A stretch of DNA of 21,562 nucleotides from a virus. The stretch is taken from positions 1 through 21,562 of the IMG/VR virus record IMGVR_UViG_3300010430_000511; one strand, 5' to 3'. Every line of letters begins with the position of its first letter. Within the stretch, counting starts at the first letter, position 1. A program made the translations under genes and the position numbers. The notes below the pieces were generated by a model. That model had not been told where the DNA came from. It made no database searches and saw nothing but the letters and a program-made list of their open reading frames with translations. Positions 2,605 through 20,553 of this stretch are shown here, in pieces.

Positions 2605-3009
2605 ATGAAGGCAGCGGAGCTAAGAATTGGGAATTGGGTTAATATGAGAGCGGTTAATTATAGCGATTTAAATTACAGAAGGGACGAACAAATATACAGC
2701 ATAGCAAGAAATGGCAATTCATATAGTATTAACTCTCATTATTTTGCTACAGGCAACGTGTTTAGTAATGATGTTACAGAACTACAACCCATACCCCTAA
2801 CAGAAGAATGGCTCAAGCGATTTGGTATAAACGGCTGTACTTGGGAACATCCTACGGGCTCAAACGGCTTATTTTGGAGTGAAGAACAAAAGTCGTTGCA
2901 TTTTTACGACCAACGAGACAGTGAGTATTCCTTCGTTATTGATTGTGAGTATGTACATCAGTTTCAAAACGCTTTCGCTTTGACAGGTGAAGAACTACAA
3001 TGCTCGTAA
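2605..3009 (+). CDS. Conserved hypothetical protein of the PIPLTEEW type
   Basis: 134 aa from the ATG at 2605. The in-frame ATG at 2557 is rejected because it lies inside the preceding membrane-protein gene and because the family normally begins MKAxELRIGNWV, exactly as at 2605. Two further landmarks fit this small protein, common in Bacteroidota phages and mobile elements: PIPLTEEWLKRFG in the middle, and YVHQFQNAFALTGEEL at the C-terminus (usual form VHQLQNLYFALTGEEL). The function of the family is, to my knowledge, unknown. The 3' end overlaps the next start by 10 nt. Confidence 0.8.
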   Translation: MKAAELRIGNWVNMRAVNYSDLNYRRDEQIYSIARNGNSYSINSHYFATGNVFSNDVTELQPIPLTEEWLKRFGINGCTWEHPTGSNGLFWSEEQKSLHFYDQRDSEYSFVIDCEYVHQFQNAFALTGEELQCS

Positions 3010-4250
3010 TAATATTCACATACAACCGCCCCGAGAAGTTAGCTAGATTGGTTAAGGAGATCGAAGGGCATGACTATTTAATAATTGACGACGGGACAGA
3101 CAACAACCCCAACGACTTCACACCTAAGAACTACCTCAAAACTCCACACGAAGGGAAACAAGGCTTTTGGAAAAAGTGGATTATAGCGAGGCAACTAGCT
3201 TTAGGCTCAGAGCATAAATATTTTCTTTTACTACCTGACGACGTTAGCAGCCTCGACCTTAAAACGATCAAAGCAATAACTCAACAAGGCTGGGATGACG
3301 CTCTTTTTGCCGTCAATGTAATCAATGACGGGCGTACTGATTGCTGGGGTATATTCAAAACAGGGCAAGAGAGCTTTAACGTAAACGGCAGCGAATTATT
3401 TGAGGTGGGTTTTGTAGATTGTGGTTTCCTAACCAATCGGGAAACCCTTCTGCATTGCCCTATTGAACAAGTTCAATCCTCTTGGTTTGACAGAGCCGAC
3501 AAATCTAGCGGGGTAGGCTATCAAATGACGCAAACCCTCAGGAGATTGCAGACGCGCATGCTAATGGCCTCCCCAACGCTGGCAGATCATGGGGCTCATT
3601 TTTCAGTTATGCACCACGAGCACCGCGACGAGGTTCCTTTAATCGCTGGAGGGCTAGAAATACCCGCCTATGTCATTAACCTAAAGAGCCGACCTAAGAA
3701 ATGGGAGCAATCCAGAGAGGAGTGCAGAAAGATAGAAACAACCCCCGAAAGGTTCAACGCTTTTAAACGCCCTCAGGGTTGGGAGGGGTGTAGAGTTAGC
3801 CACCTTACACTAATGAAGAAAGCCAAAAAGGACGACGTTTTCATGATCCTTGAGGATGACTTTGTTTTTTGTGTCCCCAACCCTAAAGAAATGATACGGC
3901 AGGCAATGGACGAATTGCCCGACGATTGGGATATACTTTACTTAGGAGCCACTTTAAACGAGCCGCTAGAGAGATACAGTAAAAACCTTTGCATTTTAAA
4001 AAACGGCTGGACCACTCACGCAATGATATTTAACAACGAGGGGGGAGTTGTTGATTACATACTTGAGCACGACGGTGGCGGGCGCAAAATAGACGTGTTT
4101 TATAACGAAGTAATTCAAGAGGAGTTTAATTGCTTTGTCTCGGCCCCAATGATTGCCAACCAACGGGACGGGTTTAGCGATATTTTAAATAGAGATGTTG
4201 ATAATGGCAAGATTATTAAGGACAGGTTTAAGCAGTTCACAGATGGCTAA
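3000..4250 (+). CDS. Bidomain glycosyltransferase: GT2-like plus GT25
   Basis: 416 aa with two catalytic domains. The N-terminal half (~1-215) looks like a GT-A fold: strand and loop VIIFTYNRPEKLARL (3-17), IIDDGTD (28-34), and an acidic metal-binding-like motif LLPDDV (77-82). The C-terminal half (~221-405) matches glycosyltransferase family 25 (LPS beta-1,4-galactosyltransferase type): entry strand YVINLKSRPKKW (224-235), GCRVSHLTLMKKA (263-275), the metal-binding ILEDDF (283-288) and DILYLGA (311-317). Two transferase domains in one chain suggest two consecutive sugar additions. No signal peptide or membrane span, so it should be cytoplasmic. It overlaps both neighbours by 8-10 nt. Donor and acceptor cannot be read from sequence. 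Confidence 0.85.
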   Translation: MLVIIFTYNRPEKLARLVKEIEGHDYLIIDDGTDNNPNDFTPKNYLKTPHEGKQGFWKKWIIARQLALGSEHKYFLLLPDDVSSLDLKTIKAITQQGWDDALFAVNVINDGRTDCWGIFKTGQESFNVNGSELFEVGFVDCGFLTNRETLLHCPIEQVQSSWFDRADKSSGVGYQMTQTLRRLQTRMLMASPTLADHGAHFSVMHHEHRDEVPLIAGGLEIPAYVINLKSRPKKWEQSREECRKIETTPERFNAFKRPQGWEGCRVSHLTLMKKAKKDDVFMILEDDFVFCVPNPKEMIRQAMDELPDDWDILYLGATLNEPLERYSKNLCILKNGWTTHAMIFNNEGGVVDYILEHDGGGRKIDVFYNEVIQEEFNCFVSAPMIANQRDGFSDILNRDVDNGKIIKDRFKQFTDG

Positions 4251-4449
4251 GAGGGGCGTAATAATAGGCAACGGGAATTGCACCCAACCAGACGGGCGAG
4301 GAGTCGAGCACCCTTTTGAGTTAGGTGACAGGGTGTTAATAACTAAAGAGATTGCAGACGACAAAGGCAAACTAAAGCGTTACATTTGTAAAGACGGGCA
4401 CGGCAGGGAAAGGATTGTTATGCCTGAGCACGTTAAGATAACAGAATGA
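4243..4449 (+). CDS. Small hypothetical protein, possibly SH3-like
   Basis: 68 aa from ATG 4243. An upstream in-frame ATG at 4195 is less likely because it lies far inside the glycosyltransferase gene, whereas 4243 overlaps it by only 8 nt as elsewhere in this operon. The middle segment FELGDRVLITKEI, followed by a short charged turn and RYICKDGHGRERIVMPEHVK, suggests a small beta-barrel of SH3 type, but this is only a pattern impression. No known family is recognised. Confidence 0.6.
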   Translation: MAKRGVIIGNGNCTQPDGRGVEHPFELGDRVLITKEIADDKGKLKRYICKDGHGRERIVMPEHVKITE

Positions 4450-4652
4450 TTAAGCAGAGATATTATTTACAGCAACAAAGGAATAGCCTGTATAAAGTCA
4501 TAGACTACGAAACAGGGGAAAGCGTGTATTATGGCAAGCAGAAAGATTGCGAGGCTCAAGTGTGGAAGGTTTTAAACCCAGGGCAAATCTTAAATATTCA
4601 TCCTTATGTAAGCGACAAACTATTAGAGTATGTTAAAACACCACACTTTTAG
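4446..4652 (+). CDS. Small hypothetical protein
   Basis: 68 aa, beginning 4 nt before the stop of the preceding gene and ending 23 nt after the start of the next one. The sequence is mixed alpha/beta with many Tyr and Gln (YYLQQQRNSLYKVIDYETGE). The stretch YKVIDYETGESVYYGKQKDC looks like a small beta-hairpin domain. Not recognised. It sits between carbohydrate-active genes, which says nothing firm about its role. Confidence 0.55.
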   Translation: MIKQRYYLQQQRNSLYKVIDYETGESVYYGKQKDCEAQVWKVLNPGQILNIHPYVSDKLLEYVKTPHF

Positions 4653-5331
4653 TAATAGTCGTATGACAATAAGCGCCGACAGGTGCGTTTCCTCAGCCCT
4701 CAATTACGGCTGCAATAGCTCTGTTGTGTTTAGGGAAAACCATATTGATAGGGATTTTTTCGAGGCTAACAAAAGCGTTTTAGAAGATGAAAGGGGCGCG
4801 GGGTTCTGGCTTTGGAAACCGTACTTTATCTTGCAACAACTCAACAGGTCCGAGAATGGGGACATCATTATTTACACCGACGCAGGGCTTGACTTTGTGA
4901 CTGACATTAATAAGCTCCTAAAGGAGATGAAGGGCGATATTATGCTATTTGGCAACGGATGGAGGCACGGCGATTGGTGCAAGACTGACGTATTAAAAGC
5001 GATGGATTGCGAGGAGTACGCAGATCGACAGCAATGCCAGGCGAGTTGTGTTATAGTTCGCAAGAGTGAGGAGAGTGTTGCTTTTATCGCCGAGTGGTTA
5101 GCGTGGTGTCAAAAGCCAGGTTTCATTGACGACAGCCAAAGCGTCATAGTTAACCCTGAGGGGTGGCGAGAGCATAGACACGACCAAGCGATTTTAACAA
5201 ATATGGCCTACCTTTACGGGATCGGTTTAAACAGGTGGCCCGCTCAGTATAAACTACAAAGGCAAGACGAGTTTAGCAATCAGTACCCTATGATATTTCA
5301 CCACCACAGAAAGCGTAACAATGAGTACTAA
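4630..5331 (+). CDS. Probable GT-A-type glycosyltransferase
   Basis: 233 aa from ATG 4630. An ATG at 4663 (residue 12) would avoid overlap with the previous gene and is a real alternative. Motifs: GAGFWLWKPYFILQQL (56-71) followed by GDIIIYTDAGLDF (77-89), an arrangement of a WxWKPY helix and a hydrophobic strand ending in Y-T-D-A-G found in a group of predicted nucleotide-sugar transferases. The Asp in YTDAG probably takes the place of the DxD metal motif. Cys-rich middle (QCQASCVIVR) and a C-terminal FHHHRKR tail. Cytoplasmic by lack of signal or span. The precise GT family and sugar are unknown. Confidence 0.65.
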   Translation: MLKHHTFSNSRMTISADRCVSSALNYGCNSSVVFRENHIDRDFFEANKSVLEDERGAGFWLWKPYFILQQLNRSENGDIIIYTDAGLDFVTDINKLLKEMKGDIMLFGNGWRHGDWCKTDVLKAMDCEEYADRQQCQASCVIVRKSEESVAFIAEWLAWCQKPGFIDDSQSVIVNPEGWREHRHDQAILTNMAYLYGIGLNRWPAQYKLQRQDEFSNQYPMIFHHHRKRNNEY

Positions 5332-5524
5332 AGCCCGTAGACTGTTAAAAGCGATTACTTGGCGATTGGTGGCCTCTGGAGCAACCTTCTTATTTAGTCT
5401 GTTGTTTTTTCAAGACTCTCCTAACCTTGTTGAAAAGTCGGCGGGATTGGTAGCCAGTTTAATTGTGGTTAAAATAGCATTGTTTTACCTTCACGAAATT
5501 ATTTACGAGAAATGGAAAGGATAA
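5321..5524 (+). CDS. DUF2061-family small membrane protein
   Basis: 67 aa with the layout of DUF2061 proteins: a basic start (STKARRLLKAITWRL), a first hydrophobic span (~16-31, VASGATFLFSLLFF), a second span (~41-56, GLVASLIVVKIALFYL) and the closing HEIIYEKW motif, the usual ending being HERxWxxI. Inserted in the inner membrane. From general knowledge, DUF2061 genes in marine Bacteroidota often lie near sulfate-activation genes, which would fit the sulfotransferase-like gene two positions downstream. That link is from memory and inference. It overlaps the glycosyltransferase before it by 11 nt and the methyltransferase after it by 13 nt. Confidence 0.8.
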   Translation: MSTKARRLLKAITWRLVASGATFLFSLLFFQDSPNLVEKSAGLVASLIVVKIALFYLHEIIYEKWKG

Positions 5525-6099
5525 CAGACAAAAGATGGGACGAGGCCCAAAAGGCAGAGCGAGAATGTCACGACAAATTCCTAAAGTCGGCGGGGTTTGA
5601 CCATGTAAAGGACCACTACAAAGCCACCTATCAAAAATACTTTAAGTATCTCGACATTGATCCCATTTGTTTAGACGGGCTTACTATTATAGAGATAGGT
5701 TGCGCGGATTTTCCAGCCCTTGAGTATTGCAATGTTGACAAGGGTATACTTGTCGAGCCGTTACCCTCAGATATTTTAATACAAATGGTTGACTATTATG
5801 AGCATTTGTATTTAATTCAATCGAAGTGTGAGGATATTGAGCTGCCACAAGCTGACGAGATTTGGCTCTTAAACGTCATGCAGCACGTACAAGATCCCGA
5901 CAAGTTTATTGAGAACTGTAAAAAGGCCGCCAAGGTTATTAGATTCTTTGAGCCCATCGAATGGCCTATTGAAATCTACCACCCTCACACGTTTACCCAT
6001 GCTTATTACTTAAAGCATTTTCCTGAGGCGGTCCGATACGAGGGGACCGATAGAGAGTTTCATACTGCAAGATGTTCATACGGTGTACATAGAGCATAA
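5512..6099 (+). CDS. Class I SAM-dependent methyltransferase
   Basis: 195 aa. The Rossmann-fold SAM site is visible as IIEIGCADFPAL (59-70), a variant of the usual E/DxGxGxG with Cys-Ala-Asp after Gly. It is followed by a strand ending in an acidic residue (GILVEPL, Glu82, expected to hold the ribose) and a motif IV-like ADEIWLLNVMQHVQDPDKFI (114-133), typical of type 11/12 methyltransferases. It is small for the family, with a ~50-aa helical N-terminal lead. Placed among glycosyltransferases, it most likely methylates a sugar or sugar-linked group, but a protein or small-molecule substrate cannot be excluded. Confidence 0.8.
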   Translation: MERITDKRWDEAQKAERECHDKFLKSAGFDHVKDHYKATYQKYFKYLDIDPICLDGLTIIEIGCADFPALEYCNVDKGILVEPLPSDILIQMVDYYEHLYLIQSKCEDIELPQADEIWLLNVMQHVQDPDKFIENCKKAAKVIRFFEPIEWPIEIYHPHTFTHAYYLKHFPEAVRYEGTDREFHTARCSYGVHRA

Positions 6100-6703
6100 G
6101 GGCAAAAAAATAGTATTCATTCATGTAGGAGGTAACGCGGGGACCTCAATAGAATGGTATTTGCATACAATCGACAAGCCCCAAAGCGTTCATATTGAGA
6201 AATTCAAAGATAACAACCACAGCCATATTGATATAATACGGGCCGAGGGGTTCCCACCGCCTGGACAGCACGAGCCTTTAAAGTGGTACAATACCCACGA
6301 CGTTAGCTTTGCGGTGGTGCGTAACCCGTTTCGGCGTATGCTTGCAAAATACTTTGCCTCACCTCATTCAAAGGACGCTAAAAACCATGAGCGGGCTTTT
6401 GAGGAGTTTATCGTTGAGTGCTACGAGTACAAAACAGCGTTTGCACAAGGGCAAAGAATACACACCCAATGCCAGAGCGTTCTACTTGAGGGGGTTGACG
6501 TTGTGCTGAGGTTTGAAACTTTACAAGAGGACTTTAATAGCTTTTGCATGGTCCACGAGTTACCAATACGCGACCTAGTTAAATGCAACTCAACAAGCCA
6601 CCCCGCTAAAAACATGGGGCTCTATACCATGAAAGGGGTTGAGCTAGTACACTACCACAACGAGGAGGTTTTCAACAAGTATTATGGGAAAGATAAACAC
6701 TAA
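6083..6703 (+). CDS. Sulfotransferase-family protein with altered PAPS loop
   Basis: 206 aa. The start IVFIHVGGNAGTSIEWYL (10-27) lines up with the 5'-phosphosulfate loop of the carbohydrate sulfotransferase family (usual form IHVPKTGGTSI), and FAVVRNPFRRMLAKYF (76-91) lines up with the 3'-phosphate motif (usual form RxPxxRxxSxY). These enzymes move sulfate from PAPS to a sugar hydroxyl. Two usual PAPS contacts are changed: the Lys of PKTGG is replaced (GGNAG), and the Ser eight residues after the conserved Arg is Ala88. Fold assignment is fairly firm; sulfotransferase activity is less so. It overlaps its neighbours by 17-20 nt. Confidence 0.75.
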   Translation: MYIEHKGKKIVFIHVGGNAGTSIEWYLHTIDKPQSVHIEKFKDNNHSHIDIIRAEGFPPPGQHEPLKWYNTHDVSFAVVRNPFRRMLAKYFASPHSKDAKNHERAFEEFIVECYEYKTAFAQGQRIHTQCQSVLLEGVDVVLRFETLQEDFNSFCMVHELPIRDLVKCNSTSHPAKNMGLYTMKGVELVHYHNEEVFNKYYGKDKH

Positions 6704-6986
6704 AATCGAGCGGTTTTGCATGATCGACAGGGCTATTATGACGGGCAACTCGTCAAGCCAGCAAGCAATTGCCGACTACGTTGCTGACAAGTTGGGCTTT
6801 CCTGTTTGCTCGGGGACGATCAAAGCAGACCTAGAGCGTATGCGGCGAGATTTTAAAGCGCCCATTCAATACGACACAATAACAAAAGAATATCGTTACA
6901 GCAAGCCCTATGAGTTTAGCGAGGCGTTTATTAGATACTGGAGCGAGTACATGGTTTTAAGTAAAGAACTGGCTAAGATATGTTAA
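6684..6986 (+). CDS. Orphan winged-helix DNA-binding protein, WYL-regulator N-terminus type
   Basis: 100 aa. It resembles the N-terminal DNA-binding part of YafY/WYL transcription factors: an R-x-x-x-I-D-R-like first helix (IERFCMIDRAI, 8-18), a helix-turn-helix with recognition helix CSGTIKADLERMRRDF (42-57), and the wing APIQYDTITKEYRYSKP (59-75), equivalent to the 'APIxYDxxxxGYxYS' strand pair of that family. The WYL ligand-sensing domain is missing; the chain ends ~25 residues later. It could regulate the phage's own cassette or host genes, or be a modified DNA-binding adaptor. It is the only recognisable regulator in the window and overlaps the genes on both sides. Confidence 0.7.
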   Translation: MGKINTKIERFCMIDRAIMTGNSSSQQAIADYVADKLGFPVCSGTIKADLERMRRDFKAPIQYDTITKEYRYSKPYEFSEAFIRYWSEYMVLSKELAKIC

Positions 6987-7723
6987 CCTATAAAAACCTA
7001 GGACGATACGGACGCATAGGAAATCAAATGTTTGAAATAGCGGGCACAATCGGCTTGGCTAAAAAGTACGGCTATGAATTTGGTTTCCCTTACTGGCAGA
7101 ACTACGACCAACTAGAAAGGTTTGGAGGAGGTGAGGATATTGATATACAAAAATGGTTTAAAAACCCGCTACCCTTAATCGACGAGGATATTGATTACGG
7201 GCTTTTTAGAGTTCCTTGGGGTTATCACGACGTTGAGGTTGGGGACAACCATAACATCGAAGGGCATATGCAAAGCGAAAGGTATTTTTTACATTGTGAC
7301 AAACTTATACGTCATTACTTTACCTTTGCAAACGAAACAGAAAAGAATGACAACACTCTTGCAGTTCACTTTCGGGGAGGCGATTACGGTGGAGACTATC
7401 ACCCTACCATGTCTGAGCGATACTATGCAGGAGCTCGTTCTAAGTTTCCCGACGATATGCGTTGCCTGCTTTTCACAGACGATCCACAACGAGCCGCCCA
7501 GGCAATACCTTTTAATTATGAATTAGTAGAGGGCAATCATTCAATGATTGACATGGAAATAATGAGTAAGTGTGACCACCATATTATTGCAAATAGCACG
7601 TTTAGCTGGTGGGGTGCTTGGCTGGCAAACAGCAAAAAGGTTGTCGCTCCTCGCAAGTGGTTTGGCAAGGAAGCGAAAATTAACGGTAACGATTTATATT
7701 GTAAAGGATGGGAAGTATTATAG
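6980..7723 (+). CDS. Alpha-1,2-fucosyltransferase-like enzyme (GT11)
   Basis: 247 aa with the full set of family GT11 motifs in order: GRIGNQMFEIAGTIGLAKK (11-29), GHMQSERYF (95-103), HFRGGDY (130-136; usual HxRRGDY), FTDD (165-168) and IIANSTFSWWGAWL (202-215). GT11 enzymes transfer fucose (some transfer galactose) from GDP-sugar to a terminal sugar, often in O-antigen or capsule. The basic HxRGGDY motif binds the GDP-sugar. It is shorter than most (~290 aa) because of compact loops, but no core motif is missing. No GDP-fucose synthesis gene is present, so the donor would come from the host. It starts 7 nt inside the end of the winged-helix gene. Confidence 0.85.
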   Translation: MLTYKNLGRYGRIGNQMFEIAGTIGLAKKYGYEFGFPYWQNYDQLERFGGGEDIDIQKWFKNPLPLIDEDIDYGLFRVPWGYHDVEVGDNHNIEGHMQSERYFLHCDKLIRHYFTFANETEKNDNTLAVHFRGGDYGGDYHPTMSERYYAGARSKFPDDMRCLLFTDDPQRAAQAIPFNYELVEGNHSMIDMEIMSKCDHHIIANSTFSWWGAWLANSKKVVAPRKWFGKEAKINGNDLYCKGWEVL

Positions 7724-7824
7724 TAGCTTATTTAGTTGGAATATTCACAGGTTTTGCCCTTGCTTTTGCAATTGGCAAACATTACGCAGACAAAAGAGAT
7801 GAAGATAATAAAGATAGTGACTGA
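7708..7824 (+). CDS. Small single-span membrane protein
   Basis: A 38-aa ORF, overlapping the end of the fucosyltransferase gene by 16 nt. Residues ~3-23 form one hydrophobic helix (IIVAYLVGIFTGFALAFAIG) with small residues spaced along it. It is followed by a short, strongly charged tail (KRDEDNKDSD), a classic tiny bitopic membrane protein. No family recognised. It could anchor the sugar-modifying enzymes or serve another membrane role. Support comes from its composition and tight fit in the overlap chain. Confidence 0.5.
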   Translation: MGSIIVAYLVGIFTGFALAFAIGKHYADKRDEDNKDSD

Positions 7825-7975
7825 TTGGCAGCCCTCAGAAAAGGAGCGGGCCGAATTGATTAAACAGTTTCATGGTGACGGGATTGAGAAAACAATTAAC
7901 CGCAAAAAGTATAAGGCCGTAGGTATGCAAGCAACAGACAAGGGGCTTAGAATATCATTCGAACCATGCGAGTAA
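7799..7975 (+). CDS. Small hypothetical protein
   Basis: 58 aa from ATG 7799. An in-frame ATG at 7736 exists, but the residues between are an out-of-frame reading of the membrane-protein gene, so 7799 is preferred. The sequence reads as a small alpha/beta protein: MKIIKIVTDWQPSEKERAEL, a Lys-rich loop, then KGLRISFEP. It overlaps the next gene by 10 nt. Not recognised. Confidence 0.5.
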   Translation: MKIIKIVTDWQPSEKERAELIKQFHGDGIEKTINRKKYKAVGMQATDKGLRISFEPCE

Positions 7976-8643
7976 GCGCCAACATTGCGACATATCCACC
8001 GAGAAAGCAGAGCCTTTTAAAAATGCTCGACTCTATTTATAGTCAATTCGACGTAATAAGAGTCTATCTAAACGGCTACAATGAGCCGCCCGCGTTTGAC
8101 GATCCTCATAACAAAATGGTCTGGCTCATGGGCGACGACCTAACGGACAACGGCAAATTTTTCGCCCTAGACCATATCAAAGAGGATGAATACTACTTTA
8201 CCCTCGACGACGATTTAATTTATAGTGCAGATTATAGGGATGTAACTATTGAGAACATCATTAGATTTAACTGCATTGTAACATATCACGGCAGGGAATT
8301 ACTCGGGACGGGCCGAGACTATTATAAAGGCCACCGTTCGCACCGATGTCTCGACAGGGTTACAGGCAACTATTCTATCGACGTGGCTGGGACGGGAGTA
8401 ACCGCTTTCGATACTCGGTATTTTCACCCCAAAGAACTAGCACACCACCCAAAGCAGAAAATGAGTGATCTATTATTTAGCTTTGAGGCGGCAACGCAAG
8501 GGGCTAAAATAATGGTTTGCGAACATGGTTACGGGTGGATAACTCACATACACAACGACGAGACAATTTACGAGACTGAAACCGCTAAAGGGATAACAGT
8601 ACAAAACCAAATAGCCGACCTTATTTATGGACTCAGAAATTAA
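7966..8643 (+). CDS. GT2-like glycosyltransferase (GT-A fold)
   Basis: 225 aa. The N-terminal strand and helix SANIATYPPRKQSLLKMLDS (4-23) is the GT2 entry motif (usual 'TYNRPxxLxxxLxSI'), followed by VIRVYLNGYNEPP (30-42) and the metal-binding acid triad YYFTLDDDLIYSADY (76-90). The stretch GVTAFDTRYF (~140-150) is typical of the strand that closes over the acceptor in phage-type members. No membrane segment, so cytoplasmic. The last 17 nt overlap the following virion gene, tying the sugar cassette to the late operon. The transferred sugar is unknown. Confidence 0.75.
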   Translation: MRVSANIATYPPRKQSLLKMLDSIYSQFDVIRVYLNGYNEPPAFDDPHNKMVWLMGDDLTDNGKFFALDHIKEDEYYFTLDDDLIYSADYRDVTIENIIRFNCIVTYHGRELLGTGRDYYKGHRSHRCLDRVTGNYSIDVAGTGVTAFDTRYFHPKELAHHPKQKMSDLLFSFEAATQGAKIMVCEHGYGWITHIHNDETIYETETAKGITVQNQIADLIYGLRN

Positions 8644-9307: not shown

Positions 9308-9426
9308 TGAACTGGAACTTTTTAGTATTCTGTCATAGGGTTGACTTTATGAACCATGAGCATCGTCAAGACCAGCTCAAACAAAATCAAAAACACGTCC
9401 ACCCCTCACACCGTAAGAAACAATAA
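9166..9426 (+). CDS. C-terminal extension of the 8627 gene in the -1 frame
   Basis: This open frame continues the 8627 gene after a -1 shift at the T run, adding 86 residues for a 266-aa product. It has its own ATG at 9175 (83 aa) but no sign of an independent start signal. The sequence looks far more protein-like than the overlapping zero frame: ILGRDTERQGAKVILKPYEW, then ATWFEIMNWNFLVFCHRVDF, then a His/Gln/Lys-rich tail. By analogy with gpG/gpGT of lambda-type phages, the long form may carry a domain that binds the tail tube or tape measure while the short form coats it. The analogy is inference. Confidence 0.55.
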   Translation, partial: FGQMELVASILGRDTERQGAKVILKPYEWEETINAVSEKYRATWFEIMNWNFLVFCHRVDFMNHEHRQDQLKQNQKHVHPSHRKKQ

Positions 9427-9431
9427 CGGGG

Positions 9432-9450
9432 TTTTACTGTCTTATAAGTA
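9432..9450 (+). promoter_or_regulatory. TGTCTTA element ahead of the tail gene block
   Basis: TTTTACTGTCTTATAAGTA lies in the 25-nt gap before the ATG at 9452. It matches the element at 17712-17731 (TTTTCATTGTCTTACAAGTA) at nearly every position if one gap is allowed, and shares the TGTCTTA core with 1062-1068. It contains the palindrome CTTATAAG (9441-9448). It is too close to the start codon for an ordinary promoter with a leader, so an operator or RNA-level role is more likely. Confidence 0.4.
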
Positions 9451-15174: not shown

Positions 15175-17697
15175 ATGGCAGCAGACAGAGAGATAGTATA
15201 CAGCATGACCGTCAACAATGACGGTTTATTAAAGGGGACTAAGGCAGCACAAGACGCGGTTCAAAAACTCACAGAGGAAACCCAAACCTTAGCCGAGGCA
15301 ATCACGGAGGTAGAGGACGACATTAGAAACGTATCGAAAGCCAGCGCCGAGAGTAAAGCAGCCGAGAACTTTGAAAAGCTCAATAAGATAGTTGACGAAA
15401 ATGTTTTATCTATCCAAGAGCTAGGGACCGCAGCCGACAATTATAAAAATATTGCTCTAGCGGCTGGTAAAGAGTCGCCAATTGGTCAGCAAGCCTTGCA
15501 AATGGCGGCAGACCTTGAAAAACAAATGGACGAAACGACTCGATCCGTTGACGCTTTAAAAGAGGGGGGTAGAGGGTTAAGCACCGCCCTATCATTAGGC
15601 TCGGGCGTTGTTGCTGGTTATACTGCTTTTGAGTCTGTTACGGCCTTGGTTGGGGTTGAGAGTGAAAAACTACAAGAGACATTTGTAAAACTACAAGCAG
15701 CGCAAGCCGCTTTGATGTCTATACAGGAATTGAAGATTGCCCTTGATAAAGAGGGGCTACTTGTCACAAGAGCCCAAGCGATAGGGACTAAACTATTAGG
15801 GGCCGCGACAGCCTCCTATAATATTATTGTCGGGACATCTACGGGGCTAATGAAAGCGTTTAAACTTGCCCTAGCAGCCACAGGGATAGGGCTTATTATT
15901 GTCGGGATTGGTATGCTTGTCGCAAATTGGGAGGCGTTCACAAGCTGGGTATCCAAGTCGGTTAAAGCCTTGAAAGACTTTGCTCTTGCAATGGCTGAAA
16001 TGATCCCGTTTTTAGGCGACTATGCAAAGGCTCAAAGGTTAGCCGCAGAGGCAGAGGCAGCCGCCGCAGCCGAGAGAGCCCGAGCGCACAAAGCACTAGC
16101 AGAAGAAACCGCCGAGCGTATAAGATTAGCAGAGGAGGAGGCCAAGGTTAAGCTAAAAGCACTAGACGAAACGATTGCGGCCCTTGAGCTTGAAAAAGAC
16201 ACCCTTGAGGCAGAAGGCAAGACCTCCGACGAGGTTACTATTAAGATCCTCGAGGCAGAAAAGGAGAAACTTGTTGCCGTGTTAGAGGCTAACAAGGAGA
16301 AAATTGCAAGCTGGACAGCATACTATGAAGGGCTGGCAGCGATGAGCGGAAAGTCAACCGAGGACTTTAAGGAGGAGATGAAGCTTAGAGGGGTTGACCT
16401 TGACAACTTCCAAGAGCAAGCAAATGACGCTCTAGCAGATCAAGAGAACGCCGTACAATTTGCTGAGAATAGGATAACAAAATTCAAAAGAGAGCAAGGG
16501 GAGAAACGAGCCGCCGACGCTAAGACCGCCAGGGACAAAATGGAGGCCGACGCTAAGGCAGCCGAGGAGAAAATGCTTGCCCTTGAGAAAACCCTTACAG
16601 ATTTACGCCTTGAAAACATAGAAAACGCCAATCAAAAAGAGATTCAATCCTTAATGGAGAAACACCGCCGCGAGTCGGAGGAGATGAAAAAACAATTTGG
16701 CGAAAACTCCGACCTTGAGCAAGAGCTTTTAATAAAGCACCAGGGAGAAATGGAGGTTCTTTTTGATAAGTTCGACGCGGATAGGGTTGCGGCTGAGGAG
16801 GCTATCATTCAAGAGCGGTTAAAGCTAATGAAGGACGGCGCGGACAAGGAACTTGCTATAATGAAGGACAAGCACCGCCTCGAAAGGGAGGAACTTGTTG
16901 CAAAGTTTGGAACCGAGACAGATTTATTACAGGAATTAACAGCCAGACAGGAGGAGGAGCTTGCCGAGTTTAACGCCGAGCAAGACGAGATTAAAAAGGA
17001 GGAGCAAATGGCTAAGATTAACGAGAACTTGGAGATAGCCAACCAAGCCCTCGCATCCATGCAAGAGGTCGCCGCCTTAATTGACCAGATAAGCGCCCAT
17101 AGAAAAAAGAAAATTGACGAGGCTAGAGACATCGAACTAAAAGACCTCGACAAACAGAAGAAAAGAGAGCTTGCAAGAGAGGGCTTAACAGCCAAGCAGA
17201 AGATTGCTATTGAAAATAAATTCGCTTTAGCCGAGCATAAGGTAAAAGTCGCAAGCGCCAAGCAAAAGGACAAGATTGCAAAGCGGGAATTTAACAGAAC
17301 CAAGGCCCTAAAGCTTGTTGAGATAGGACTCAACACGGCGGGCGGTGTTATGCAGGCGCTCGGATCATTCCCGCCTCCTGCGTCATTCATCTTTGCAGGG
17401 ATTACGGCAACGATTGGAACCGTGCAGGCGGCTATTGCGGCGGCTCAGAAGTTTCAACCCTCAAGCGACTCAATCCCGCCCCCTCAACTTCAAAGCTTTT
17501 CAATCCCTTCTGGAGCGGCGGGCGGCGGCGGTGGTGGCGGTGGTGGTGCTGGCGGTGGCGGTCCACTTCAAGACGACACAACCACAAACTTAGAGGATTT
17601 AGAGGAGGACGAAAAGACCAGCGTAACCATTTCACAGGTCGAGATAAACGAGAACCGTGACCAAATGGAGAAGGTCAAACAGGTAGCCACTATCTAA
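15175..17697 (+). CDS. Tape measure protein
   Basis: 840 aa, sitting one base after the previous stop. The whole protein is helical and coiled-coil-rich, as expected for the rod that fixes tail length and leaves with the DNA. Two hydrophobic segments (~229-256 and ~726-760) are typical of tape measures and may insert in the host membrane. Residues ~285-700 are a long charged coiled coil with a 70-residue repeat (units at ~478-547 and 548-617). Near the C-terminus is a glycine run (about residues 783-797) and then an acidic tail. At ~1.5 angstrom per residue the tail would be ~120 nm, a family rule of thumb, not a measurement. Confidence 0.9.
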   Translation: MAADREIVYSMTVNNDGLLKGTKAAQDAVQKLTEETQTLAEAITEVEDDIRNVSKASAESKAAENFEKLNKIVDENVLSIQELGTAADNYKNIALAAGKESPIGQQALQMAADLEKQMDETTRSVDALKEGGRGLSTALSLGSGVVAGYTAFESVTALVGVESEKLQETFVKLQAAQAALMSIQELKIALDKEGLLVTRAQAIGTKLLGAATASYNIIVGTSTGLMKAFKLALAATGIGLIIVGIGMLVANWEAFTSWVSKSVKALKDFALAMAEMIPFLGDYAKAQRLAAEAEAAAAAERARAHKALAEETAERIRLAEEEAKVKLKALDETIAALELEKDTLEAEGKTSDEVTIKILEAEKEKLVAVLEANKEKIASWTAYYEGLAAMSGKSTEDFKEEMKLRGVDLDNFQEQANDALADQENAVQFAENRITKFKREQGEKRAADAKTARDKMEADAKAAEEKMLALEKTLTDLRLENIENANQKEIQSLMEKHRRESEEMKKQFGENSDLEQELLIKHQGEMEVLFDKFDADRVAAEEAIIQERLKLMKDGADKELAIMKDKHRLEREELVAKFGTETDLLQELTARQEEELAEFNAEQDEIKKEEQMAKINENLEIANQALASMQEVAALIDQISAHRKKKIDEARDIELKDLDKQKKRELAREGLTAKQKIAIENKFALAEHKVKVASAKQKDKIAKREFNRTKALKLVEIGLNTAGGVMQALGSFPPPASFIFAGITATIGTVQAAIAAAQKFQPSSDSIPPPQLQSFSIPSGAAGGGGGGGGGAGGGGPLQDDTTTNLEDLEEDEKTSVTISQVEINENRDQMEKVKQVATI
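16606..17025 (+). repeat. Two 210-bp (70-aa) diverged tandem units in the tape measure coiled coil
   Basis: Units 16606-16815 and 16816-17025 align without gaps over their first ~52 residues, sharing about 18 positions, among them RL at the start, KE, KHR, FG, DL and QEL. The register is exact: the KHR motif falls at residues 496 and 566. The end of the second unit is less clear. The pattern fits growth of a tape measure by duplication. Confidence 0.55.
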
Positions 17698-17715
17698 CCA
17701 ACAAAAACGGCTTTT

Positions 17716-17746
17716 CATTGTCTTACAAGTAAGAACTAAGACAATG
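17716..17746 (+). promoter_or_regulatory. Perfect 10-bp inverted repeat over the protease start codon
   Basis: CATTGTCTTA (17716-17725) and TAAGACAATG (17737-17746) are exact reverse complements with an 11-nt loop. The ATG of the next gene is the last three bases of the 3' arm, so an RNA hairpin would bury the start codon. As DNA it is a strong dyad that could bind a dimeric protein. The loop side also holds CTTAC-AA-GTAAG, an overlapping alternative dyad. The TGTCTTA core is shared with 1062-1068 and 9438-9444. No T-run follows, so it is not a terminator. Confidence 0.55.
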
Positions 17747-18874
17747 CCAGAGCGTTTACCAATTTACGAATTAGTAATTGACGAGACTGACGGGGCCGTC
17801 GGTATGGATTACATGGGGCTTGTGGACTATCCCGCGCACGGAAAGGCGTGGATTTCATTTAACCAAGCACCAAGCACGCCCCAAGTCAAAAGTCACTTCA
17901 ATGAAGAAAAAAGGATAGTCAAAGGGGTAGCAATCGCCACCGATTTACAGATTTACAGACGACGAGAGGATGGGAGCGAGTACAACGTTGTATTTAGAAA
18001 AAACGAAGTACTCAAACTCTTAAAGTTATGGGCCAAAAACGGCTACTATAACAACGTCAACCTTATGCATGATCCTAGCCAGAAGATGGAAGGGGTTTAT
18101 ATGATTGAGGTATTTCTCATAAACGACAAAGGGGACAACGTGCCCGAGGAGTTTAAAGGTCAGAACGTTCAACCTGGTTCACTCATTATGAGTTATTGGG
18201 TTGAAAATGATGACGCTTGGAAGTTTATCAAAGAAAAGGGCGCGGGCTTTAGCATTGAAGGCTGGTTTAAAGAAATCGAAATCAATATTAAAAAAATGAA
18301 AACAAAAAAACGCAGTTTAAAGGGCCGTATCAAGGTTCTTATGAGCGGAATCGAAACGCGCAAAACATTCGATAAGGAAACAATGGGCGAGGCTGTCACG
18401 GTTGACGGTTTAGCTGTCTTTTGGGACGGCGATCTTGAGGCTGGTAAAGCCCTTTACATTGTAGACGAGGAAAACCCCGAGGAGGGAATACTTGCAAACG
18501 CTGATACCTATTCATGGGAAGCTGACGGGGCGACTTTGGTCGTGACTGTTGACGAGGCTGGACTTATTACCGACATCACAGAGGGCGAAGGAGCCGAGGA
18601 GGAGGAAGAACTCAACGAGGAGGAAATGAATACAGACCAATTCGAGGCTTTTAAAGCCATGAAAGACGGATTTGACTCTATGCTTAAAGCACAGGAGGAA
18701 AAGTTTAACGCTGAACTCGAAACCCGAAGCAAGGCTTTTGACGAGCTAGTGGAAACTATCGAAGCACAAGAGAAAGCTCTCGAGGATCTTACTGAGGTTG
18801 TTGAGCAAATCCATGAAGGCAAAGAAAGCAAGCACCTTAAACAACAAAAATCTCCAGCTTGGAGAAAAAAATAA
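17744..18874 (+). CDS. XkdF-type prohead protease with C-terminal scaffold
   Basis: 376 aa. The N-terminal ~175 residues match phage serine proteases of the XkdF / peptidase S78-like group: LPIYELVIDE, GLVDYPAH (25-32), EEKRIVKGVAIATDLQIYRR (54-73), VNLMHD with the likely catalytic His109, YMIEVFLIND, and KGAGFSIEGWF with the likely catalytic Ser170. After this comes a small beta domain (~200-280), a Glu-rich linker (EGAEEEEELNEEEMN) and a coiled coil (~300-362), as expected for a scaffold. It should guide capsid assembly and then cleave scaffold and capsid-associated proteins. The ATG at 18296 (residue 185) follows an A-rich tract and may start a separate 192-aa scaffold. The gene precedes the capsid gene by 27 nt. 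Confidence 0.85.
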   Translation: MPERLPIYELVIDETDGAVGMDYMGLVDYPAHGKAWISFNQAPSTPQVKSHFNEEKRIVKGVAIATDLQIYRRREDGSEYNVVFRKNEVLKLLKLWAKNGYYNNVNLMHDPSQKMEGVYMIEVFLINDKGDNVPEEFKGQNVQPGSLIMSYWVENDDAWKFIKEKGAGFSIEGWFKEIEINIKKMKTKKRSLKGRIKVLMSGIETRKTFDKETMGEAVTVDGLAVFWDGDLEAGKALYIVDEENPEEGILANADTYSWEADGATLVVTVDEAGLITDITEGEGAEEEEELNEEEMNTDQFEAFKAMKDGFDSMLKAQEEKFNAELETRSKAFDELVETIEAQEKALEDLTEVVEQIHEGKESKHLKQQKSPAWRKK

Positions 18875-18901: not shown

Positions 18902-19924
18902 ATGCCACAACGATTTAAAACACACAGAAAAGCGGAGCGTAAAACCTTCGACCAGGTAATTCGGGACGAGTTCGATTATGACGTTTCGGCGCTCCCAGCA
19001 TACGTGGACGAGCAAAGCCCTGAGGTAATCGCTGACCTAGTATCAAGCGGAAACCTAAAGAGCCGTATCTCTATTATGGACAATGTAAAGGGATCAAAAT
19101 TGATTAAACTTAAAACTTCCGCGCCTTCTTTGCAGGCTGCGAACACTTGCGGCTGGAACGCCTCGGGCGGGATTGTCTTAACTGACAAAACTATCTCGAC
19201 TTCTCGCGTAAAGATTCAAGAGGAGTATTGTAACGAGGACCTTATTGACGTATGGCCTCAGATCGAGCTAATGGCTGGAGCTAACACAATGGATGAGGAA
19301 GCACCAGACTTTGCCGATACAATGATTATGTACTACCAACAAAGAGCGCAAGAGCTTGACGAGAATTTGATCTGGAACGGGGACACCGACAGCGCAGATT
19401 CAAACCTTGCACACTATGACGGGCTTATCAAGCAATGGAAAAACGATGACGACGTGCATATTTTTCACGCTGGATCTGTCACTATTGACGAGACAAACGC
19501 ATACGACCAACTTAAAAACTTGGACGGGCGAGTTCCTAACATTGTTAAGCGATACCGCTCGACAGTTGGATACGAAATCGTTTGCGGGCGTAATGTCGCG
19601 GAGGATTGCCTTGCTCAGATTTGGGAGGATAAAGACTATAATGGAGCTTTAGAGTTCACAGACGAGGACGGCTCTATTACGTTTATGTTGCCAGCAACGC
19701 AAACGCGAGTACGTTCTTATCCTGAGCTTGATGACACTCAAGAAGTCTGGGGAGTTCCTTACGGGTATATTTTCTATGCTACGGATTTGGAGTCTGATAT
19801 TGACGATTTTGGGTTTAGATTCAACTACCACGACGAGCACCTTAGATTTGGTGTAAAGTGGTTTTCTGGAATTTCCTACGTATACGGTCAGTATTTCACG
19901 AGATTGCTATTAGCAGCATCCTAG
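18902..19924 (+). CDS. Major capsid protein (HK97 fold)
   Basis: 340 aa, directly after the protease/scaffold gene. Features that fit an HK97-fold capsid protein are an N-terminal helical arm, the strand-turn-strand SRISIMDNVKGSKLIKLKTS (~54-73), the segment GGIVLTDKTISTSRVKIQEEYCNEDLIDVW (~89-118), a long 'spine'-like helix with DTMIMYYQQRAQELDENLIWNGD (~139-161), and a C-terminal WFSGISYVYGQYFTRLLLA. The sequence has the LIWNGD element (where a helix ends in 'W.Gd') common to Bacteroidota phage capsids. No separate scaffold gene is present, so the C-terminal part of the protease gene probably serves. Assignment rests on context and these patterns. Confidence 0.8.
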   Translation: MPQRFKTHRKAERKTFDQVIRDEFDYDVSALPAYVDEQSPEVIADLVSSGNLKSRISIMDNVKGSKLIKLKTSAPSLQAANTCGWNASGGIVLTDKTISTSRVKIQEEYCNEDLIDVWPQIELMAGANTMDEEAPDFADTMIMYYQQRAQELDENLIWNGDTDSADSNLAHYDGLIKQWKNDDDVHIFHAGSVTIDETNAYDQLKNLDGRVPNIVKRYRSTVGYEIVCGRNVAEDCLAQIWEDKDYNGALEFTDEDGSITFMLPATQTRVRSYPELDDTQEVWGVPYGYIFYATDLESDIDDFGFRFNYHDEHLRFGVKWFSGISYVYGQYFTRLLLAAS

Positions 19925-19931
19925 AATTAAT

Positions 19932-19953
19932 GGGGGGTTAACGCCCCCCTTTT
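19932..19953 (+). terminator. Rho-independent terminator after the capsid gene
   Basis: GGGGGG (19932-19937) and CCCCCC (19944-19949) form a 6-bp all-GC stem around TTAACG, followed by TTTTATT. It lies 7 nt after the capsid stop and 23 nt before the next start. Partial termination here would set the capsid transcript level above that of downstream genes. Confidence 0.8.
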
Positions 19954-20524: not shown

Positions 20525-20553
20525 GGGGGCGGTAAAACATCGCCCCTTTTTTT
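20525..20553 (+). terminator. Rho-independent terminator after the tail-tube-like gene
   Basis: GGGGCG (20526-20531) pairs with CGCCCC (20541-20546), with a possible extra G-T pair, leaving a loop of about 7 nt (TAAAACA). Seven T residues follow (20547-20553). It lies 18 nt after the stop. The next start is only 10 nt further on, so downstream genes depend on read-through or on an unrecognised promoter. Confidence 0.85.

Follow-up and report, generated by a model that had tools for sequence, protein, structure and literature searches.

The 5' arm of a perfect 10-bp hairpin that encloses the start codon of a phage protease gene carries a conserved promoter-like core, a feature overlooked in the first-pass annotation, which had singled out the hairpin itself. 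The hairpin is private to the contig analyzed here, a virus record of 21,562 bases (the window), and is not conserved in relatives, so that attention moves from a one-off hairpin to the conserved element. From this element, sites of late transcription initiation can be predicted across a large group of uncultured phages; its placement suggests leaderless or nearly leaderless late mRNAs. As for the hairpin, the sequence suggests a scenario that we favor tentatively, with slightly more doubt than confidence, namely, that in it a promoter is folded over the start codon, an arrangement that would silence read-through RNA of the protease.

Table 1. Features of the window discussed in the text
Feature	Position	Strand	Notes
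Protease gene, XkdF-like (Peptidase_S78_2)	17744-18874	+	Pfam PF14550, PHROG 15223
Co-directional gene upstream of the protease gene, tape-measure-like judging from size and position alone	15175-17697	+	ORF; possible read-through source
Capsid-like gene, 3' of the protease gene	18902-19924	+	PHROG 11320, PHROG 1623
Upstream block ACAAAA, possible -35-like part	17701-17706	+	13 nt before GTCTTA
Second element copy, ACAATA-N13-GTCTTA	9420-9444	+	7 nt ahead of the gene 9452 start codon
5' arm of hairpin	17716-17725	+	CATTGTCTTA; exact complement of 17737-17746; holds core GTCTTA (17720-17725)
Hairpin loop	17726-17736	+	11 nt
3' arm of hairpin	17737-17746	+	TAAGACAATG; terminates in the start codon (17744-17746)

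The protease gene and its hairpin

The original assignment of the gene as a phage protease holds: the protein is XkdF-like and is encoded just before a capsid-like gene. The match of the window protein to PF14550 (E 4.3e-4) is just under the family cut-off, of the 14 aligned members, 9 match this profile at E 0.01, the best of them with E 8.3e-13, and PHROG 15223, annotated 'protease', is matched at E 8.4e-5. The N-terminus aligns with those of 13 relatives to within a few residues, which backs the start at 17744. Because the one cultured match (28% identity over 46% of the protein) is from a flavobacterial phage, Nonlabens phage P12024L/S, we infer that the host belongs to the Bacteroidetes. 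For the capsid-like protein, the PHROG matches are 11320, of unknown function (E 8.1e-12), and 1623, annotated as virion structural protein (E 6.5e-7); it shows 45-58% identity to proteins in 20 viral loci. Family searches with the gene upstream of the protease yielded no usable match. The stop codon of this gene (17695-17697) ends 18 nt ahead of the 5' arm. At this distance a terminating ribosome would probably not melt the hairpin, so that the earlier suggestion of opening by a translating ribosome lacks support. No terminator-like sites were found between 17400 and 17743; the single one detected in a scan of 17400-17900 lies within the protease gene and inside shuffle expectation. A sigma-70 scan of 17400-17900 found no promoter of the E. 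coli type.

Several other features of the window were observed in passing. G/C-rich terminator-like hairpins with T-rich sequence lie directly 3' of the capsid-like gene (19932-19949) and of the gene that follows it (20525-20547), and by eye, among the matches listed, similar hairpins precede 15 of 16 homologs of gene 19977 and all 6 homologs of gene 20564, in a survey of 19 chosen loci, some of them on one contig. A 13-bp hairpin of very high stability, with a T-run at its end (2303-2353; z -3.64 for the folded stretch 2260-2360) lies 3' of the terminase gene and is a likely terminator. Between the terminase and tail genes, the region 3000-8643 encodes glycan-type functions, namely, glycosyltransferases of families 25 and 11 and a sulfotransferase, and looks like cargo placed within a late region. 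Upstream of the terminase start, at a distance of 21 nt, there is a hairpin (1052-1080; -11.3 kcal/mol, z -1.39) of the form GGGTTC..GAACCC, with an inner TGTC/GACA stem containing TGTCTTA (at 1062, 33 nt from the ATG), which may or may not act as a promoter.

The geometry described in the first-pass annotation is exact: the two arms at the protease start, 11 nt apart, are exact reverse complements that form a perfect 10-bp stem, and the ATG of the ORF 17744-18874 comprises the last letters of the 3' arm. The RNA of 17708-17760 folds with -14.8 kcal/mol (z -3.67), better than all 200 shuffles, whereas the segment originally suggested, 17690-17800, is less striking (z -1.94, with 7 of 200 shuffles as good). 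The idea that the stem is opened by temperature is not supported, and a thermosensor is rejected, given that the predicted pairing of the start codon is 0.996 at 37 C and still 0.97 at 60 C. A search of the window for Rfam cis-regulatory RNAs gave no matches above the gathering score.

How improbable is such a stem? Shuffling of its own start region reaches 10 bp over the ATG in 9 of 20,000 cases. Among 466 near-clade gene starts, the window included, 0.23 start-codon stems of 10 bp are expected and one is seen; for stems of at least 7 bp the count is 11 against 11.1 expected, and for at least 8 bp, 1 against 3.8, that is, no enrichment. In the whole window there are two perfect stems of at least 10 bp with loops of 3-20 nt (0.4 expected), and at least one appears in 24.5% of 200 whole-window shuffles. 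Thus, the protease-start stem is unlikely at its own spot and insecure once all inspected starts are counted. The second perfect 10-bp stem of the window (5778-5787/5803-5812) lies within the ORF 5512-6099.

Relatives that keep the gene but lack the pairing had been named beforehand as a refuting finding, and such relatives are what we found, which counts against a conserved switch. We compared 137 distinct protease starts, window included, each with at least 40 nt of upstream sequence, from 203 records gathered by scans of viral contigs, two of them capped (one at the best 80 loci of at least 481 relatives, another at the best 80 of 332), plus one phage record. A stem of at least 8 bp that covers the ATG is seen in the window only (1 of the 137 listed), the closest proteases among the matches listed being only about 50% identical. 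Among genome contigs, no relatives of the protease were confirmed in 34 pattern matches and none of the capsid protein in 108.

A conserved element close to late start codons

In the upstream regions listed, near-clade relatives carry [GC]TCTTA close to the protease ATG, and the distant clade has a counterpart, CGTTATA. The form [GC]TCTT[AT] occurs within 30 nt of the ATG in 21 of 36 near-clade protease starts, the window included, and in 15 of the 23 that are left when those more than 70% alike are removed (window again included), against 1.09 expected from mononucleotide shuffles; the 8 starts without the core include that of L010, one of the nearest relatives. De novo motif search in 22 non-redundant near-clade upstream regions, with the window held out, recovered ataA[GC]TCTTAT with a log-likelihood of 67.0, compared to at most 34.2 in 20 shuffled sets; in 17 of the 22, a distance of 4-9 nt separates the end of the best hit from the ATG. 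The two window copies fit the core of this motif, GTCTTA, but match its flanks poorly, and the 16 best-scoring motif matches within the window include neither of them. At the window's protease start the core is 18 nt away from the ATG, as opposed to 5-9 nt.

The element appears to consist of two parts. Of 17 near-clade elements, 7 have a CAAA block 12-20 nt upstream of the core, the window's element with its block at 17701 being one of the 7; in the distant clade the block accompanies 16 of 26 elements, compared to 30 of 220 control upstream regions. Both forms are found between genes more often than the intergenic share of the loci would predict, with the caveat that these fractions, as well as the 'divergent' neighbors below, are approximate, gene calls being ORF picks from ATG. 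Specifically, 38 of 142 CGTTATA occurrences in 80 distant loci (redundancy kept) are intergenic, when only about 4.5% of the sequence is, and 17 of the 142 lie exactly 5 nt ahead of a called ATG; in 39 near loci (4.4% intergenic), 16 of 107 matches to CAA-N14..18-[GC]TCTT[AT] are intergenic, one site being counted twice. The element is not confined to the protease gene. The second window copy, which has CAAT rather than CAAA in the upstream block and no 10-bp start-codon hairpin, precedes a neck-like gene (PHROG 5, E 2.2e-4), and among the matches listed the homologs of this gene in L104 and L103 have CTCTTT and GTCTTT, respectively, each 6 nt before the ATG, so that three genomes place the element before this late gene as well as, in related phages, just before the protease. 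Elsewhere in the window, the 20-nt element has no repeat with up to 3 mismatches; TGTCTTAYAAGTA occurs exactly only at the two sites from which it was derived, and with up to 3 mismatches it is found 13 times in the window (12.3 by chance), which is no excess. In four distant loci, L061, L075, L086 and L089, there are three or four CGTTATA-type elements each, the protease's included, a few nucleotides before an ATG and several of them after a terminator-like T-run; together they are candidates for the late promoters of a large group of phages.

From these sequence patterns, we read the conserved element as a phage promoter. The alternative that it is a signal for translation initiation, with the hairpin tuning initiation on all messages, could draw on the usual proximity of the element to the ATG noted above, but appears quite improbable. 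Such a signal would hardly be accompanied by the upstream block, which is enriched in the distant clade over the control regions. Nor would it be expected in divergent gaps: in L006, L008, L011, L012, L017 and L022 the ORF upstream of the protease gene is divergent, the protease message therefore most simply begins in that gap, and the core is located 5-8 nt from the ATG in five of the six, L022 having just the variant ATCTTT. Furthermore, among the non-protease CGTTATA sites listed, 16 of 35 come, as counted by eye, after a terminator-like T-run. Finally, initiation in F. johnsoniae is described as favoring little structure and an A at positions -3 and -6 (PMC6847099).

If the element is a promoter, it does not appear to be one of the host type. 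The Bacteroidetes sigma-A promoter (TTG ... TAnnTTTG), scored as a strict pattern, was rejected as a candidate, with TAnnTTTG found in none of the six divergent gaps and nowhere within 17698-17743 of the window. The phage sigma factor family PF08281 was found in none of 14 relatives' records, which are possibly incomplete. None of the open-access papers listed in searches on this element, or on late promoters in phages of Bacteroidetes, named it, and the portion of PMC8375218 available to us does not give the motif.

A third reading takes the site as a DNA operator, with TCTTACAAGTAAGA (17721-17734) being a palindrome over the promoter that is bound by a repressor. Indeed, TCTTAC-AA-GTAAGA is a perfect inverted repeat, and short inverted repeats are also present in L120 (TCTTTA/TAAAGA), L011 and L126, which makes 4 of the 15 near-clade elements counted; however, by the same rule such a repeat is missing from the other 11 and from the window's copy at 9439, and the repeats over the core differ in sequence. 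We consider an operator very improbable.

Proposed long and short protease messages

Because the 5' arm holds the promoter-like core, RNA started there would be without the hairpin, which probably exists on long read-through messages alone and not on the gene's own message. The scenario that we infer is as follows. The GTCTTA of the 5' arm, together with ACAAAA, would be the window copy of the promoter-like element, and transcription would start at approximately 17731, inside the loop, leaving a leader of about 13 nt from which the 5' arm is missing. This position is derived from the element-to-ATG spacing in relatives combined with the 4-5 nt promoter spacing of F. johnsoniae; by the same 4-5 nt spacing, the start sites in most relatives would fall at or near the ATG. 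RNA reading through from the gene 15175-17697 would contain both arms, hide the start codon and be translated poorly, whereas the promoter-started RNA would have an ordinary opening energy at the start and ordinary translation. As a result, translation of the protease and capsid module would rely mainly on RNA started at its own promoter.

Folding predictions are compatible with this scenario and support the earlier suggestion that RNA containing both arms keeps the start codon within the stem. The predicted cost of opening positions -10 to +16 is 8.1-12.4 kcal/mol for RNAs with 5' ends at 17600-17719, against 4.65-5.0 kcal/mol for 5' ends at 17722-17737 and a median of 4.7 kcal/mol over the 466 near-clade starts, among which the window's protease start ranks 7th. 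In the short RNA, the start codon is still predicted to be paired (about 0.94), in a weak downstream stem, so that the difference between the long and short forms is one of energy and not of a fully open start.

Could the promoter element be real and the hairpin a functionless by-product? We consider this nearly as likely as the silencing scenario, although still short of an even chance. A pyrimidine-rich element and an A/G-rich leader might pair by accident, or a template-switch (quasi-palindrome) event might have perfected the pairing. The solitary occurrence of the hairpin among the 137 listed starts and the lack of enrichment of start-codon stems, with 0.23 such stems expected in 466 starts, are both in line with a by-product. 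So are L003 and L120, two relatives in which a similarly long leader follows the element but no comparable pairing is seen (583 and 408 of 5000 shuffled leaders, respectively, pair as well; no excess). An accident, however, has to contend with the rarity of a 10-bp stem in shuffles of this start region, with the high rank of its opening energy and with the fact that none of 5000 shuffled leaders pairs with the window's element as well as the actual leader does.

Beyond the window, silencing of read-through RNA is not supported as a trait shared by the clade. In the long fold, the protease start regions of the 26 relatives compared show more structure than do 441 other gene starts (p 1.6e-4, the starts not being independent), which is also the reverse of what would be expected of an initiation enhancer; the long-minus-short difference in opening energy is larger at these proteases than at other genes as well (p 0.015, again not independent), and there is no difference in short-form structure (p 0.20). 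The 27 proteases in this comparison were picked by hand, with the near-duplicates L118 and L119 included. Structure is no lower in relatives whose upstream gene is divergent and where read-through is not expected (15.1 kcal/mol in L011, 11.0 in L012 and 9.9 in L022); hence structure does not track possible read-through.

Comparison with known systems

The primary promoter of F. johnsoniae, a member of the Bacteroidetes, has a -7 element, TAHHTTTG, with 4-5 nt from element to start (PMC6847099). The phage element would occupy the same place (-12 to -5) if RNA starts at or near the ATG, but its sequence differs, TAnnTTTG being absent from all six divergent gaps. Whereas 87% of the predicted leaders in F. 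johnsoniae exceed 10 nt (PMC6847099), most phage elements would leave almost none.

The closest parallel to the proposed function of the hairpin comes from phage T4, where the late promoters of gene e and I-TevI are placed such that the late RNA omits the 5' strand of a hairpin over the start region (PMC3014915, PMC2988022); soc and 49 are also given as having sequestered start regions, and T4-type relatives keep such leaders. As in gene e and I-TevI, the start region of the window would be sequestered, here by prediction, on any longer upstream transcript, a shorter transcript would be without the hairpin, and the gene belongs to a co-directional unit. The differences are in the element and in the evidence: in T4 the late promoter, TATAAATA, is known, as is the phage sigma factor gp55, and 5' ends have been mapped, whereas the window has [GC]TCTT[AT], with no Shine-Dalgarno-type site evident by eye, and a hairpin in one contig. 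A broader scenario, which we regard as unlikely, is that a widespread phage group, probably infecting Bacteroidetes, starts its late messages at or very near the AUG from a non-host-type promoter, CAAA-N13..16-GTCTTA/GTTATA, and that the present lineage moved the promoter about 12 nt upstream, creating a self-silencing cassette independently of T4 but in the T4 manner. Should the proposed function of the hairpin be correct, the T4 solution for barring late proteins from read-through messages arose again, in phages whose hosts, provided that they are indeed Bacteroidetes, are not dependent on Shine-Dalgarno sequences.
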